A DNA stretch of 34,792 bases from positions 1 to 34,792 of the IMG/VR virus record IMGVR_UViG_3300043399_000364, one strand, 5' to 3'. Shown piece after piece: positions 853 to 33,690 of this stretch. The translations under genes were made by a program, and so were the position numbers. Under the pieces are notes generated by a model. The model made no database searches. It was not told where the DNA came from and worked only from the letters and a program-made list of their open reading frames with translations. Each line of letters begins with the position of its first letter. The stretch's first letter is position 1. This DNA is from a virus.

Positions 853-1162
853 TGGCCACCTCGTAGTTTACGTGATATATCGCTCCGGTCGGAACGTACT
901 TCAATTCCGTTCCTTGCGTGAACACCATCAATTTTAGCATAGCCTTCACTTCGGTATGGTTTATCTTGGCACCTTTATTGAATCCATATTCGTCAGGATC
1001 GCTGACAACCTCCCACAAGGCTTCATCCAGTTGCTTGCGGAACTCCGACTTCCAGTTAGTCTGACGGCGTTCTATCACACGCACTTCCGCGCCGCAATCC
1101 ATACAAAAACGTCCATTGTTGATTATCTTGCCACAGCTGCTGCACTTGTTATAGAACTTCAT
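806..1162 (-). CDS. zinc-ribbon protein, 118 aa
   Basis: The N terminus carries a compact zinc ribbon: CSSC at residues 8-11 and CMDC at residues 20-23. A charged helical middle and a short basic C terminus follow. The start overlaps the helicase stop by 4 nt (ATGA) and has an AGGTGG Shine-Dalgarno. No enzymatic motif is visible. Its position between helicase and MazG suggests a nucleic-acid binding accessory factor, but that is inference from context only. Confidence 0.7.
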   Translation of the reverse strand: MKFYNKCSSCGKIINNGRFCMDCGAEVRVIERRQTNWKSEFRKQLDEALWEVVSDPDEYGFNKGAKINHTEVKAMLKLMVFTQGTELKYVPTGAIYHVNYEVANANKRISGQKHTNAE

Positions 1163-2433
1163 ACGCCCACCTGATTTATGAATTTAGTCTTATCGCCCAG
1201 GTAGGTAAGGTGTATCCCGCCCACCGGTCCATTGCGTTGCTTGGCCACAATCACTTCGGTATCCATCGCGCCATCCTTGCGGTGTAAGAATATGACATTG
1301 TCGGCATCCCGCTCCAACGCGCCTGATTCACCCAAGTCGGTCAGGATAGGCCGCTGGTCATCCTGCGCCCGTTGGTTGGCGGCGCGGGATAGCTGGGCGG
1401 CGCATACAACGGGGATATTGAATTCCTTGGCGATCTGCTTCAACCCGCGGCTGATGCTTGCCACTTCAAGATGCCGTTGCTCCTTGTGTTCATCCGCGCC
1501 AGCCAGTTGGAGGTAATCCACGAACAGAACATCCACCTTGGGCAATCTGCGTATCTCGGAACGGATCTTGTTGGGGGTAATCCTTGGCAGGTCATTCAGG
1601 TATAGCGGGTACTGGTCGGAGGTAAGGCTGCCCATTGACTGGTAGTACTTATCCCAGTCGACTTTACCGATGCGTTGGTCGTGGAAGTTGATACCTGAAT
1701 CCATTGACATAAACCGCATTGCGACCTGGTCCGAACCCATCTCCAAGCTGAAGAACAGCATATGCTTGATCTCCCGCTTCATAATGTTGTACACAAGGGA
1801 GGCAAGGAAGGCCGTCTTGCCAACACCAGGGCGGGCGGCGATGATGGTGAAGTCGGGGGCGGATAATCCCACGATCAGCTTGTCAAGGTTCGTGAATCCC
1901 GTCTTGATATAGCCAATATGACCGCTGGCGGCCTGCTGGGTTTTATCGTGCGCTCGTGACATCGCTTCGGAGAATGTGATGGTGCTTGTATCCACGGATG
2001 CGGAATCAATCGTGCCCAACTTGGAGGTGATGTCGTGGACCACATCGGAGGGGTTTCTACCGCGCGTCACCCAAGTCGCAGCATCATTCAGAATCGCCAT
2101 AATTTGCCGATTTTTGGCGTTTTTATTGATGATGCCGATATAGTTGCCATAATGCTCCGGAATGGCGTCATCCCGCAGGTAAACCAAAGCGGCGCGGCCA
2201 TTGATGGAGGGGGCGTCGTGCAGCGCGATGTCCTTCAGCTCCAGCTTGTCGCCGATGGTAACGGTGTCGATATTGATGGACTCGTTGTGGAGATCCAGCA
2301 TTGCCTGATAAATCGCGCGGTAAGGCTGCCAAGTAAAATCTTCAGGCTTGACACTTGCGGATACGTTTCCGAAGTTCTTGGGCGCTTTTAGTATCGCCCC
2401 CAGCAGGGCTTGCTCTACTTTACGTTCTTCCAT
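1159..2433 (-). CDS. dnaB: DnaB-type replicative DNA helicase
   Basis: Ring helicase that would unwind the phage fork. The N-terminal DnaB domain spans about residues 1-105. The RecA-like core has Walker A RPGVGKTA at 201-208, the SLEM motif near 229-232, Walker B LFVDYLQ at 303-309, a DnaB-type QLSR region near 347-350 and KQRNGP near 398-403. Length 424 aa is close to the usual ~450. AAGGAG lies 9 nt before the ATG. No primase or polymerase gene is visible in the window, so host enzymes probably supply them. Confidence 0.96.
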   Translation of the reverse strand: MEERKVEQALLGAILKAPKNFGNVSASVKPEDFTWQPYRAIYQAMLDLHNESINIDTVTIGDKLELKDIALHDAPSINGRAALVYLRDDAIPEHYGNYIGIINKNAKNRQIMAILNDAATWVTRGRNPSDVVHDITSKLGTIDSASVDTSTITFSEAMSRAHDKTQQAASGHIGYIKTGFTNLDKLIVGLSAPDFTIIAARPGVGKTAFLASLVYNIMKREIKHMLFFSLEMGSDQVAMRFMSMDSGINFHDQRIGKVDWDKYYQSMGSLTSDQYPLYLNDLPRITPNKIRSEIRRLPKVDVLFVDYLQLAGADEHKEQRHLEVASISRGLKQIAKEFNIPVVCAAQLSRAANQRAQDDQRPILTDLGESGALERDADNVIFLHRKDGAMDTEVIVAKQRNGPVGGIHLTYLGDKTKFINQVGV

Positions 2434-2898: not shown

Positions 2899-3699
2899 CT
2901 AATCCAACCAATTAAAATTCTTGTAGGGGTCGTTATCCACCTTGCGCCGCGCCACGATCCCGTTCAGGGTATTCGTCAACGACATCGGGCTGGTAATGGT
3001 GTAGCCGTTCATCGCCTGAACCGCGGACTTTATGTCATCCACCTTCACACCGAGGTTATTCCAATCCTCGAAGGCGCCAACCCACTTCTTCTGTTGACTG
3101 GTCATATACTGTAATCCCGTTGCTTCGGTAAAGGCTCTTCCGAATTCCTGATATTGCTCCGGTAACAGTGTATCGGTTCTCTTCTTGGCTTTATCGGATA
3201 ATCCGATCATATCCAGTACCTGCTTGTTTACGTTTTCGTAATCGGTTTCGGTCAATGATTTAATGATGGTTAAATGATGGTTTAAGTCAAGTGGCTTGAC
3301 TACCTCTGGTAAAGTGGCTTGACTACCCTGGTCAAGTGGCTTGACTACTCCACCGGAATTCTGGGCCGGATTATTTTTTAACGTTGGTGTAAAAGCGTTC
3401 AAGTTCAGCTGGTACATATTCGTTTTATGCTTATCATTTACACCAACAACTTCAAGGATCCCGTTGTATTTTAGGGCTTCGATGGTATCTATAACGCCCT
3501 GCCTTGATAGCGCTGTTTTTACTTCAAGCCGAGATAACCCAGGGTAGGCGATGCCATCATCATTGCAATGGTCGGCAATAGCCAACAATAAAAGCTTGAC
3601 GGTGGATGCCTTCGCGGTACGCTTCTGGCCGTTCTTTACATATTCGAAGTCGCCTGGGAATTCCGTCTCGAATACGGCTGACATAATCTTGATGCTCAT
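2899..3699 (-). CDS. winged-HTH replication initiator-like protein
   Basis: A 266-aa protein whose residues ~25-90 form a winged helix-turn-helix domain (TAKASTVKLLLLAIADH... LSRQGVIDTIEALKYNGIL). A low-complexity linker (~105-145) and a C-terminal helical domain (~175-260) follow, similar in layout to phage initiator or helicase-loader proteins of the lambda O/DnaD kind. The linker DNA contains three palindromic 15-bp repeats beside A/T-rich direct repeats, a typical place for a phage origin. GGAGGT precedes the ATG, which overlaps the upstream gene by 4 nt. The initiator role is inferred from domain layout and the embedded repeats. Confidence 0.72.
   Translation of the reverse strand: MSIKIMSAVFETEFPGDFEYVKNGQKRTAKASTVKLLLLAIADHCNDDGIAYPGLSRLEVKTALSRQGVIDTIEALKYNGILEVVGVNDKHKTNMYQLNLNAFTPTLKNNPAQNSGGVVKPLDQGSQATLPEVVKPLDLNHHLTIIKSLTETDYENVNKQVLDMIGLSDKAKKRTDTLLPEQYQEFGRAFTEATGLQYMTSQQKKWVGAFEDWNNLGVKVDDIKSAVQAMNGYTITSPMSLTNTLNGIVARRKVDNDPYKNFNWLD
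3262..3345. repeat. candidate replication origin: iterons plus A/T-rich repeats
   Basis: GTCAAGTGGCTTGAC occurs at 3286-3300 and 3331-3345, with a one-mismatch copy (GTAAAGTGGCTTGAC) at 3309-3323. Each is a palindrome of 6-bp arms around TGG, and the copies start 23 and 22 bp apart, about two helical turns. Directly left lie two A/T-rich direct repeats (AATGATGGTTA and AATGATGGTTT, 3262-3283), a plausible unwinding element. The middle copy lies in a different reading frame from the other two, so the repeat is conserved as DNA rather than as peptide. Confidence 0.7.
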
Positions 3700-3983
3700 A
3701 CTACCTCCATAACTTGGTACACATTCCCGAACTCCCGAATCAATCCCGCCTCCACCAGCTCTTTTTTAGCCTGGCTGACCATACCGGTAGACATCTTGCA
3801 TATCATCGCCAATGTCTTCACGGACTGGTAGCACAACCTGTTCTCGCCAGCTACACGGCGGAAGTGGATATATAGCCTGAAGGCGTGCGGGCTTAACATC
3901 ATATCGTCCACAATATTCGGCACCATCGTAAAGTTCGTCCGCGGGCTGGCTTCGTCTATTATCCGGTACTGTTCGTCTGTCAT
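3696..3983 (-). CDS. helix-turn-helix DNA-binding protein, 95 aa
   Basis: Small protein with a clear winged HTH in its second half (about residues 50-90, VKTLAMICKMSTGMVSQAKKELVEAGLI), like the N-terminal domain of phage replication initiators. It sits directly upstream of the larger initiator-like gene and overlaps it by 4 nt, so the two may act together at the origin or as regulators. GGAG lies about 9 nt before the ATG. Alternatives are a transcriptional regulator of this operon. Confidence 0.72.
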   Translation of the reverse strand: MTDEQYRIIDEASPRTNFTMVPNIVDDMMLSPHAFRLYIHFRRVAGENRLCYQSVKTLAMICKMSTGMVSQAKKELVEAGLIREFGNVYQVMEVV

Positions 3984-4003: not shown

Positions 4004-4501
4004 TCAATTCCAGAATACCGAGGATGAATTCCTTACCGCGTTCATCCTTTCGAATTCTTTTATATGATACGTGAAGAATCCGGTTTTATCGTTATTCTTT
4101 AATAAATACTTGGTTTCGCTGAATAAAGGTTGGGCAGCGTTTATATCCAATAACACCCAGTCCTGAATGGCCGTGCATTGTGGATTCTCCCAGGCATATA
4201 GATACCAGTCGCCGTAACCTTCGCGCAGCTTGTCAATCTCCGTTTTATGGCCGTAGATAAAAGCACGTATGGTGATGTCGCGGTATGAACAATTCCCACG
4301 CCTGATACGGACCGCCACATCGCCAGACGTGATCCGCACCTTCAGATCAGTGGAATGCTTCATATCCTCTTCCGGCGTGGCAACCTCCACATTGACAATG
4401 TGCATAGCGTTGGCTTGGAGGATGGTTTTTATCGCACCGATATACTGCTCGCTGAATGTCCAATTCTGGTTGAAGTTTTTTGCCCATAAGGTTTGTTCCA
4501 T
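4004..4501 (-). CDS. phage protein of unknown function, 165 aa
   Basis: First gene of the leftward operon, preceded by GAGGTG and by the interleaved inverted repeats of the leader. No family is recognised with confidence. The middle has alternating hydrophobic and charged strands (DLKVRITSGDVAVRIRR) and an aromatic stretch (GYGDWYLYAWE), so a mixed alpha/beta fold is likely. A restriction-like nuclease core is possible from the D...VRIRR pattern, but this is weak. Being first after an attenuator-like leader suggests an early, regulated role. Confidence 0.65.
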   Translation of the reverse strand: MEQTLWAKNFNQNWTFSEQYIGAIKTILQANAMHIVNVEVATPEEDMKHSTDLKVRITSGDVAVRIRRGNCSYRDITIRAFIYGHKTEIDKLREGYGDWYLYAWENPQCTAIQDWVLLDINAAQPLFSETKYLLKNNDKTGFFTYHIKEFERMNAVRNSSSVFWN

Positions 4502-4518
4502 AACACCTCGCTTAATAA

Positions 4519-4631
4519 GAAAACCCCGTTGTTGCCATTCAACTTGTCACAATCGAAGGGCGCAACAACGGGGGTTTTCAGCCTGGACCAATTATAAACT
4601 AATAATTGGGTAAATCCCTTCGATTGTGACA
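4519..4631 (-). promoter_or_regulatory. leader with interleaved inverted repeats (attenuator-like)
   Basis: Arm A (4519-4535) pairs with A' (4562-4579, 17 bp with one bulged G). Arm B (4545-4560, TGTCACAATCGAAGGG) pairs perfectly over 16 bp with B' (4616-4631). The order A-B-A'-B' interleaves the arms, so the full stems compete or would have to form a pseudoknot. A third hairpin (4588-4595/4602-4609) lies between. In the leftward transcript the A'/A hairpin is G/C-rich and followed by TTTTCTTATT, terminator-like, ending about 15 nt before the first start codon. B' is at or near the predicted 5' end of the RNA. Confidence 0.65.
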
Positions 4632-4636
4632 TAAAC

Positions 4637-4663
4637 ATTATAGCACAATAAATAAAAAGTCAA
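4637..4663 (-). promoter_or_regulatory. leftward early promoter (replication operon)
   Basis: On the minus strand the sequence reads TTGACT, 15 bp, TATAAT. The -10 box is preceded by TGC, giving an extended -10. The spacing is short, so the extended -10 probably carries the recognition. Initiation is predicted near 4630, at the start of arm B'. Confidence 0.65.
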
Positions 4664-4666
4664 CCC

Positions 4667-4695
4667 TTGACAAGCGTTTTATTGGCGTGTAAGAT
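4667..4695 (+). promoter_or_regulatory. rightward sigma70-type promoter for 4728-5298
   Basis: TTGACA (4667-4672), 17-bp spacer, TAAGAT (4690-4695). AAAGGAG and the first start codon follow at 4728. Its -35 overlaps GTCAACCCTTGAC (4659-4671), a palindrome-like site shared with the leftward promoter, so one regulator could govern both directions. Confidence 0.8.
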
Positions 4696-5298: not shown

Positions 5299-5321
5299 AA
5301 TCGGAAACGTAACCACAATAG

Positions 5322-5349
5322 AAAAGACCACCTCTGCGGGTGGTCTTTT
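5322..5349. terminator. bidirectional terminator between convergent operons
   Basis: An 11-bp perfect stem AAAAGACCACC/GGTGGTCTTTT around a TCTGCG loop, with an A-run on the left and a T-run on the right, works in both directions. It separates the rightward 4728-5298 genes from the leftward 5411-6561 genes. Confidence 0.92.
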
Positions 5350-5378
5350 TGCGCCCTTTATGGCGCTTGGTGCTGGGC

Positions 5379-31591: not shown

Positions 31592-33418
31592 ATGAACATT
31601 TGGATGGACGTAGATACAGCACTTTCGGAAGTACCAGTCAATGTGATGCCACTCATTGACGATACGGACTTCAAATCCATTGAGGCTTCCGTTGCCTATA
31701 ATGCGACAGGGATGGCACTCAAGTGGAACTTTGTGACCACGGCTGGTGCTTATACACAGACCGCCGTCACGCCGACTACAGGCGGTGTGTATGACTGGAC
31801 GAGTCAGGGTAATGGCATGTACTCCATCGAGATCCCAGCATCGGGCGGTGCATCTATCAACAACAATACTGAGGGCTTCGGATGGTTCTCGGGCGTTGCA
31901 ACCGGGGTACTTCCCTGGCGCGGCCCCGTAATTGGATTCCGAGCAGCTGCCCTGAACAACTCCCTCGTGGATGGGACGACCATTGACGTGAACGTGACCG
32001 CTATGGCGACCGACACGATCACAGCAGCTGCGCTCAAGGCGGATGCCGTGACCGAGATTCAGAATGGTCTTGCCACTCCGACAAACATTACGGCTGGAAC
32101 TATTACCACCGTAACCAATGTAACCAATGATGTCGGTATTACTCAGGCTGGTGCAGATAAGGTATGGGGTTCTACTACAAGGACATTGAGTTCATTCGGA
32201 ACTTTGGTATCTGATATTTGGGCTAATGCGACACGTACTCTAACCGCTGGCGTTGCTACGGCGCAACAGGTGTGGGAATACGCTACCCGTGCATTGACAG
32301 ATAAAGCAGACTTTGCTCTGAGTTCCACCGCTTCCGCCGACTTGGTGGATGCTATTTGGGACGAGGAGCTTACTGGTGCCACCCACAACGTAGCCACATC
32401 ATCCGGTCGAAGGATCAGGACAATGGATAGCAACGTCATCCTATCCGATGTCCTCCCCAGCCAGGCCGGCCTTGCTACCAACGCCATCAAGTTCGATGGT
32501 GGCGCGTCTTCAGCTGACAACGCTTATGATCCGGCGATGATTGTCATCCTTGACGGTGATGGTGCTGGCCAATGCCGACTTATCTACCAATACAACGGGA
32601 CTACAAAGACGGCGTATGTCGACAGAGACTGGAAGGTACAACCGGCGGCGACAGATACCTTTGCCATCATCGCAGATCCTGGTCGTGAACACATCAACGA
32701 GGGTCTTGCCCAAGCAGGTGGGGCAGACACAATTACACTCAACGCGAACGCATCCGACTCTGATGACGCTTATGTTGGGCAGGTCGTTGTTCTAAAGGGC
32801 GGTACTGGTTCTGACCAGGCTTCCCACATCATCGCTTATAACGGAACGACCAAGGTAGCCACCGTCAACAAGAACTGGGCGGTGCAACCTGATAACACTA
32901 CTACCTACGTGATGCTCCCGACCGGTATGCTTTACCTTGCCGGTCTTGTCAGCGATATATGGTCGGCAGGCACAAGGACCTTGACGCAGGCAGCTATCGC
33001 GCCACAGGCGTCTATCAGCGCGGGCAACCTTATCGGAGTGCGCGGGGATACCATCAGCCTGTCGGTTACCGGCCTTGGTTCCCTGGCTAATTATTCCGCG
33101 CTTTACTTTACCGCCAAGACGGGCTTTGGATTACCGGACGCTGAATCCACCCTCCAGATTGTCAAGAAGCCAGGCGGTTCGGACGGGTTGTTGTGGCTGA
33201 ACGCAGCTGCGACTACATCATCGTGGGGATCCATTACAATCACGGACGCCAATGCCGGCGATATTACAATCGCATTGACCGCGGATGCCAGCAAGGAATT
33301 GGCCGTCAATCTTTACAATTACGACATCCAGATTGTCCGCTCCGCCGGTACGCCCGTAAGCACATTGGCCACGGGCAGGTTGTCAATCATTGAAGATGTA
33401 ACCCGTTCCATCTCTTGA
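31592..33418 (+). CDS. large tail fibre/adhesin with internal repeats
   Basis: A 608-aa protein with GGAG before the ATG. Four copies of a W-x-x-x-T/A-R-x-L-T motif occur: VWGSTTRTLS, IWANATRTLT, VWEYATRALT and, later, IWSAGTRTLT. Two copies of a ~55-residue unit follow each other (about 300-360 and 370-430; shared YNGTTK, W-x-VQP). The C-terminal ~120 residues look like an Ig-like domain (GDTISLSVTGLGSLANYSALYFTAK, in outline) of baseplate-upper proteins. Likely the main side or tip fibre. The 5' third has the A/T-richer style of the preceding gene. Confidence 0.72.
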   Translation: MNIWMDVDTALSEVPVNVMPLIDDTDFKSIEASVAYNATGMALKWNFVTTAGAYTQTAVTPTTGGVYDWTSQGNGMYSIEIPASGGASINNNTEGFGWFSGVATGVLPWRGPVIGFRAAALNNSLVDGTTIDVNVTAMATDTITAAALKADAVTEIQNGLATPTNITAGTITTVTNVTNDVGITQAGADKVWGSTTRTLSSFGTLVSDIWANATRTLTAGVATAQQVWEYATRALTDKADFALSSTASADLVDAIWDEELTGATHNVATSSGRRIRTMDSNVILSDVLPSQAGLATNAIKFDGGASSADNAYDPAMIVILDGDGAGQCRLIYQYNGTTKTAYVDRDWKVQPAATDTFAIIADPGREHINEGLAQAGGADTITLNANASDSDDAYVGQVVVLKGGTGSDQASHIIAYNGTTKVATVNKNWAVQPDNTTTYVMLPTGMLYLAGLVSDIWSAGTRTLTQAAIAPQASISAGNLIGVRGDTISLSVTGLGSLANYSALYFTAKTGFGLPDAESTLQIVKKPGGSDGLLWLNAAATTSSWGSITITDANAGDITIALTADASKELAVNLYNYDIQIVRSAGTPVSTLATGRLSIIEDVTRSIS

Positions 33419-33443
33419 CATTGGAACGGATGTTCGCTATACT
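33415..33443 (+). promoter_or_regulatory. strong promoter of the structured RNA locus
   Basis: TTGACA (33415-33420) overlaps the stop of the fibre gene; 17-bp spacer; TATACT (33438-33443). A 16-bp inverted repeat ATACTAT-GT-ATAGTAT (33439-33454) overlaps the -10 and the predicted start near 33450, like an operator. Confidence 0.8.
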
Positions 33444-33449
33444 ATGTAT

Positions 33450-33690
33450 AGTATTAGGTTGTTGTAGACAAGTCACTGCCACAACCTACCCGGAGTCCGG
33501 GAGTAGACAGTTGATCTATACGGCAATTTAGACCAACTAAATACTAAAGGGCGGTGTCGGCAATATTCCGACTCCCCGTAGCTACGGCTGATAGACGTGC
33601 AAGTCGTCTGACCGCCCACTTATCTTCTCCTCCTTCTATACCCTCCTTTCTGTGTCAGGCAAGCCCCGCTGTGATAGCGGGGTTTCGCTT
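33450..33690 (+). ncRNA. putative structured non-coding RNA, about 240 nt
   Basis: No sizeable coding frame is present. From the predicted start, domain 1 (33450-33545) can close by AGTATTAGGTTG with CAACTAAATACT (one mismatch, one G-U); alternatives are AGGTTGT/ACAACCT (33456-33462/33481-33487) and CCCGGAGTCCGGG (33489-33501). Domain 2 (33549-33617) is a four-way junction: GGGCGGT/ACCGCCC closes hairpins GTCGG-7 nt-CCGAC, CCGTAGCTACGG and AGACG-7 nt-CGTCT. A pyrimidine-rich single-stranded part (33618-33655) precedes a terminator. It is cloverleaf-like but has no anticodon arm, so it is not a normal tRNA. I recognise no known RNA family. Confidence 0.68.
33661..33690 (+). terminator. terminator of the RNA locus
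   Basis: Stem AAGCCCCGCT/AGCGGGGTTT (33661-33670/33676-33685, one G-U) with a GTGAT loop, followed by CGCTTT. It ends the transcript started near 33450. Confidence 0.8.

Follow-up and report, generated by a model that had tools for sequence, protein, structure and literature searches.

The regulation of replication-initiator genes through a terminator in the mRNA leader is described for the pT181/pIP501 systems, in which a terminator-like stem just before the initiator gene is opposed by an upstream leader segment (the pre-emptor). Pairing of the pre-emptor with the terminator's own 5' arm makes the two states exclusive, and an antisense RNA serves as the signal (PMC5703833). In the immunity system of phage P4 (CI RNA), a replication operon is subject to premature termination within an untranslated leader with complementary segments, through an antisense RNA that is processed and has two targets, seqA and seqC (PMC4825925). 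A regulatory pseudoknot occurs in the leader of the replication-initiator mRNA of ColIb-P9 repZ, where it acts on translation together with an antisense RNA (PMC8383071; Rfam PK-repZ). The put RNA of phage HK022 is a structured RNA located just downstream of an early promoter; its two separate stem-loops bind RNA polymerase and favor readthrough at distant terminators (PMC9378689).

The leader described here precedes a replication operon in a window of 34,792 bases, i.e., an entire virus record, which may itself be a fragment. Its features are given below in the direction of the predicted leftward transcript.

4658-4663, minus strand: predicted -35-like hexamer TTGACT, with a 15-nt spacer to the -10
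4637-4645, minus strand: extended -10 TGCTATAAT of the predicted leftward promoter; third-ranked sigma70-like site of the window
4616-4631, minus strand: arm B' TGTCACAATCGAAGGG, predicted to form the 5' end of the RNA; partner of B (16/16)
4588-4609, minus strand: small hairpin CCAATTAT-6-ATAATTGG within the B'/B loop; -7.2 kcal/mol, single copy in the window
4562-4579, minus strand: arm A' GAAAACCCCCGTTGTTGC, 5' side of the terminator-like hairpin, complementary to A over 17 pairs around a single bulged C
4545-4560, minus strand: arm B CCCTTCGATTGTGACA, partner of B', located in the A'/A loop
4519-4535, minus strand: arm A GCAACAACGGGGTTTTC, 3' side of the same hairpin as A'
4514-4523, minus strand: T-rich tail TTTTCTTATT, T-tail score 3.69; the beginning of the tail coincides with the basal A-T pairs of the A'/A stem

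The order in the transcript is B', the small hairpin (4588-4609), A', a single base, B, 9-10 bases, A, TTTTCTTATT, GAGGTG and the ATG at 4501. In a repeat search, B (4545-4560) and B' (4616-4631) were complementary at all 16 positions, and they constitute the longest perfect inverted repeat in the window for partner distances of up to 400 nt. Arms A (4520-4535) and A' (4562-4577) were 94% complementary without a slip; when a slip is allowed, 12 perfect pairs (4524-4535/4562-4573) and five further pairs (4519-4523/4575-4579) flank one bulged C. The 16 perfect base pairs of B'/B, the 17 pairs of A'/A and the interleaving in the order A-B-A'-B', all proposed in the initial annotation, were thus recovered, the 17 pairs (4519-4535/4562-4579) being imperfect owing to the bulged C. 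No second interleaved pair of inverted repeats was present in the window when each arm was required to reach 9. When the window was shuffled 60 times (first-order Markov), the longest arm was 14, and only nine interleaved pairs were observed across all of the shuffles, the best of which had a shorter arm of 10. Similarly, natural DNA from phages and bacteria (346 kb) yielded nine interleaved pairs, with best arms of 10 and 11. The predicted leader RNA folded with a z-score of -4.25, and none of 200 shuffles folded equally well. The arms and their interleaving are therefore real and beyond chance, and the leader is a genuine, unusual element.

The leftward transcript had been proposed to begin at or next to arm B', and this is probably so, judging from the predicted promoter. 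The extended -10 at 4645-4637, followed by a 6-nt discriminator, places the predicted start at G4630 (A4632 is also possible), such that B' would form the 5' end of the RNA. Sites were scored with a general sigma70 matrix, a sigma70-type promoter being assumed, and the start was set by the usual rule for the distance between the -10 and the start. The TATAAT near 4596 was considered as a second, internal start and rejected, as this site ranks only 276. The same perfect TATAAT (4597-4592, minus strand) lies within the first 40 transcribed bases and is of a type able to cause sigma-dependent pausing, which has been proposed for HK022 putL (PMC9378689). A 69-aa ORF (4638-4429, minus strand) spans the whole leader and would be translated only from an RNA that begins at A4632 or further upstream. 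A leader peptide was rejected, because both candidate ATGs (4638 and 4632) precede the predicted start at 4630; the exception would be a start at A4632, in which case the message would be leaderless.

An intrinsic-terminator-like stem with a T tract is present between the promoter and the first gene, in agreement with the T-tailed hairpin of the initial annotation: the 17-bp A'/A stem is followed by TTTTCTTATT, located 12 nt upstream of the gene that starts at the ATG at 4501. The T-tail score of 3.69 compares with 2.62 for an ordinary terminator near 5321-5350, and only 0.05% of the positions in the window match or exceed it. At 26 nt, the A'/A loop is long and unusual among intrinsic terminators, and the hairpin was not called by a standard terminator scan, which is limited to loops of 3-8. 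Part of arm B can form a local stem of 7 bp inside this loop. From the sequence, termination at A'/A appears likely.

The genes downstream encode initiator-like proteins and DnaB, in keeping with the replication operon that had been assigned.

4004-4501, minus strand: first gene of the operon, 165 aa, function not assigned, with the SD GAGGTG; no relatives found
3696-3983, minus strand: HTH_36 protein, replication-initiation-like
2899-3699, minus strand: replication initiation protein, O-like
1159-2433, minus strand: DnaB-like helicase, with its own strong promoter-like site TTGACG-16-TATAAT (2488-2461)

Since the DnaB gene has its own promoter-like site, control by the leader would fall chiefly on the initiator genes. 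Three iterons with the core GTCAAG-N3-CTTGAC (3283-3348), located inside the initiator gene, represent a candidate for a lambda-like origin, and three copies of this core occupy the corresponding position in L014 (5314-5375), one of the kin with the most similar initiator. A palindrome, GTCAACCCTTGAC (4659-4671), is located between two divergent promoters and overlaps both of their -35 regions. Its half-site is similar to that of the iterons, and the initiator might therefore bind this palindrome too.

In classical attenuators, the competing states represent a choice of pairing partner. The two helices of this leader have no bases in common, and their arms follow one another in the order B'-A'-B-A, which is that of an H-type pseudoknot with loops of 36, 1 and 9-10 nt; loop 3, of 9-10 nt, compares with a geometric minimum of about 6 nt estimated from A-form geometry. 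As separate nested folds, A'/A and B'/B were calculated at -40.8 and -37.5 kcal/mol, respectively, and a rough energy sum for both helices together gave about -57 kcal/mol, below the single states of about -41 and -37 kcal/mol. The absence of shared bases, the sufficient loop lengths and the lower energy of the pseudoknot suggest that the helices are not mutually exclusive at equilibrium. As they are compatible in a pseudoknot, B'/B need not prevent termination, and any competition would be kinetic or topological rather than a choice of partner.

The order of folding was followed in co-transcriptional runs with 20 settings, i.e., combinations of start and barrier threshold. In 18 of these, B'/B formed before A was complete and was then kept, consistent with the proposal that B'/B can form first. 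In the other two (start 4632, thresholds of 5 and 6 kcal/mol), the RNA was trapped in a weaker early fold and ended as A'/A. The saddle from B'/B to A'/A was about 31 kcal/mol in the nested model, and an RNA without B' (start 4614) folded into A'/A at thresholds of at least 7 kcal/mol. These runs forbid pseudoknots, which the rough energies favor, and hence cannot decide whether the helices coexist. The initial interpretation is thus supported in part, but the proposal that the two states compete is not supported in its original form and would hold only as a matter of timing or topology: B'/B blocks A'/A in the pseudoknot-free nested kinetic model, yet the helices occupy separate bases and may coexist as an H-type pseudoknot of an estimated -57 kcal/mol or so.

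The best explanation, held tentatively and with confidence just short of evenly balanced, would be a promoter-proximal terminator of the replication-initiator genes that is antagonized kinetically by the RNA's own 5' end. It builds on the arms, their order, the strong promoter-like and T-tail signals and the folding order of the nested model. The leftward RNA would begin at or next to B', and A'/A, with its 26-nt loop and the tail TTTTCTTATT, would act as an intrinsic-terminator-like hairpin directly ahead of the first gene. Once B exits RNA polymerase, B' would pair with it and place A' in a closed loop, leaving 9-10 nt to bridge a duplex of 15-16 bp before A. The closed loop and the short bridge should slow the formation of A'/A during passage of the polymerase over the T tract, and readthrough would be favored. 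If B' were missing, bound or masked, A'/A would form promptly and transcription would stop after about 115 nt. In the longer term, both helices would probably coexist as an H-type pseudoknot. We infer termination at A'/A, antagonism by B'/B and any regulator that might act upon them. The spacer of the leftward promoter, 15 nt, is short and counts against this attenuator reading. A bolder form of the proposal, which we consider rather unlikely, is that an antiterminator and a terminator without shared bases exclude each other solely through topology while the RNA is being made, its 5' end closing a loop round the first arm of the terminator. Readthrough would then be set by the availability of the 5' end, which would make the leader a "knot-timed" switch of phage replication. 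If B'/B does hinder A'/A without shared bases, the timing of termination can be achieved by a pseudoknot layout alone, and a phage can couple the synthesis of its replication initiator to the state of the mRNA 5' end; this leader would be a compact case.

The favorable energy of the combined structure can also be read without any switch. The leader would then be a very stable H-type pseudoknot that shields the mRNA 5' end and/or gives rise to a small terminated RNA, a constant proportion of transcripts reading through. Both helices fit sterically, their summed energy of about -57 kcal/mol surpasses the best nested folds (about -41 and -37 kcal/mol), and B' pairs the extreme 5' end; such pairing is a known way to slow mRNA decay. 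In contrast, the T-rich tail and the location just ahead of a gene suggest a role in termination, and it would be topologically hard to form 17 pairs within a closed loop with the 3' end still retained by RNA polymerase. This explanation is considered rather unlikely. The repeats could instead function in the DNA, whereby B/B' and the dyads at 4588-4609 and 4659-4671 would be binding sites for a repressor or the initiator and the RNA structure would be incidental. Both dyads are perfect and adjoin the promoter, that at 4588-4609 could be an operator, and the interleaved repeats of another sequence, L037, which lie near a tRNA-like sequence and an integrase-like ORF, probably serve as DNA sites. 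B and B', however, lack dyad symmetry of their own and have no copies at other promoters, whereas the T-rich tail of arm A and the order of the arms are typical of RNA hairpins, and the leader RNA folds far better than its shuffles (z = -4.25); a DNA-level element is therefore decidedly unlikely. Multi-copy operators were likewise rejected, as no further copies of the arms were found in the window.

A trans-acting role, of the P4 CI or IsrK kind, would have the terminated leader pair through B or B' with another nascent leader and control its termination, providing feedback on the replication genes. The setting resembles that of P4, i.e., a phage replication operon preceded by an untranslated leader with complementary segments (PMC4825925), and self-complementary arms permit pairing between leaders. 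This role is nevertheless improbable, and is placed below the DNA-level element: B occurs only twice in the window at up to 3 mismatches, with no third complementary copy as in P4 (seqA, CI and seqC), B' would usually meet its own B first within one molecule, and no Rfam match was obtained. A countertranscript-driven attenuator, with a rightward antisense RNA across the leader, would match pT181/pIP501 in its logic and place, namely a pre-emptor arm and a terminator before the rep gene (PMC5703833). Its probability is very low, since no plus-strand promoter-like site of at least 9/12 was detected between 2897 and 4667, and B' touches neither A' nor A, whereas the pre-emptor of pT181 targets one arm of the terminator itself, the 5' arm.

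Searches with the leader DNA and with the first-gene protein, the initiator, DnaB, the large terminase and a neighboring protein revealed no genome carrying the element among the records covered, from which very close ones may be absent, and the covariation check suggested earlier consequently provided no support. An exact search with arm B returned 10 single-copy matches and no double copy, which is about the level of chance by a rough estimate. The layout was absent from the stretches compared in phages sharing the terminase (L038-L041) and in the kin with the most similar initiator (L003/L014), the latter having a short, ordinary leader instead. Two further sets of interleaved repeats were rejected as homologues: that of L027 is a simple repeat, and that of L037 (980-1089; GGGTTACATG and others) is located between a tRNA-like sequence and a long, 442-aa integrase-like ORF, and probably represents the arm sites of an attachment site.

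The same window contains a second apparent structured RNA, a non-coding gene at 33410-33690 (plus strand; fold z = -4.07), which has a strong promoter-like site, TTGACA-17-TATACT, of rank 2 in the window. It comprises two closed multibranch domains, the second of which (33549-33617; GGGCGGT..ACCGCCC) is cloverleaf-like and is followed by a terminator-like hairpin near 33661-33685. This region gave no Rfam match and no tRNA or tmRNA by ARAGORN.

No phage attenuator of exactly this layout was known to the initial annotation, and a literature search, with subscription journals largely outside its reach, found none. Rfam gave no match in the window; the leader matched its families only at chance level, below the gathering threshold. 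As in pT181/pIP501, a terminator-like stem lies just before the replication-initiator genes and would be opposed by an upstream leader segment, but here that segment, B', pairs with the loop segment B, and no rightward promoter-like site of at least 9/12 lies in or just left of the leader that might provide an antisense signal. The replication operon and the untranslated leader with complementary segments recall P4, in contrast to which B has one partner, there being two copies only; the two-target feature of P4 is thus lacking. The candidate pseudoknot in the leader of an initiator mRNA has a counterpart in ColIb-P9 repZ, which differs in acting on translation, and the match of the leader to PK-repZ was at chance level (12 bits versus the 44 required). 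Like the put RNA of HK022, the leader is a structured RNA just downstream of a phage promoter that would favor readthrough, although its structure is interleaved with its own terminator. The leader, with its attenuator-like layout, is a member of none of these families, and each of them shares one aspect with it.
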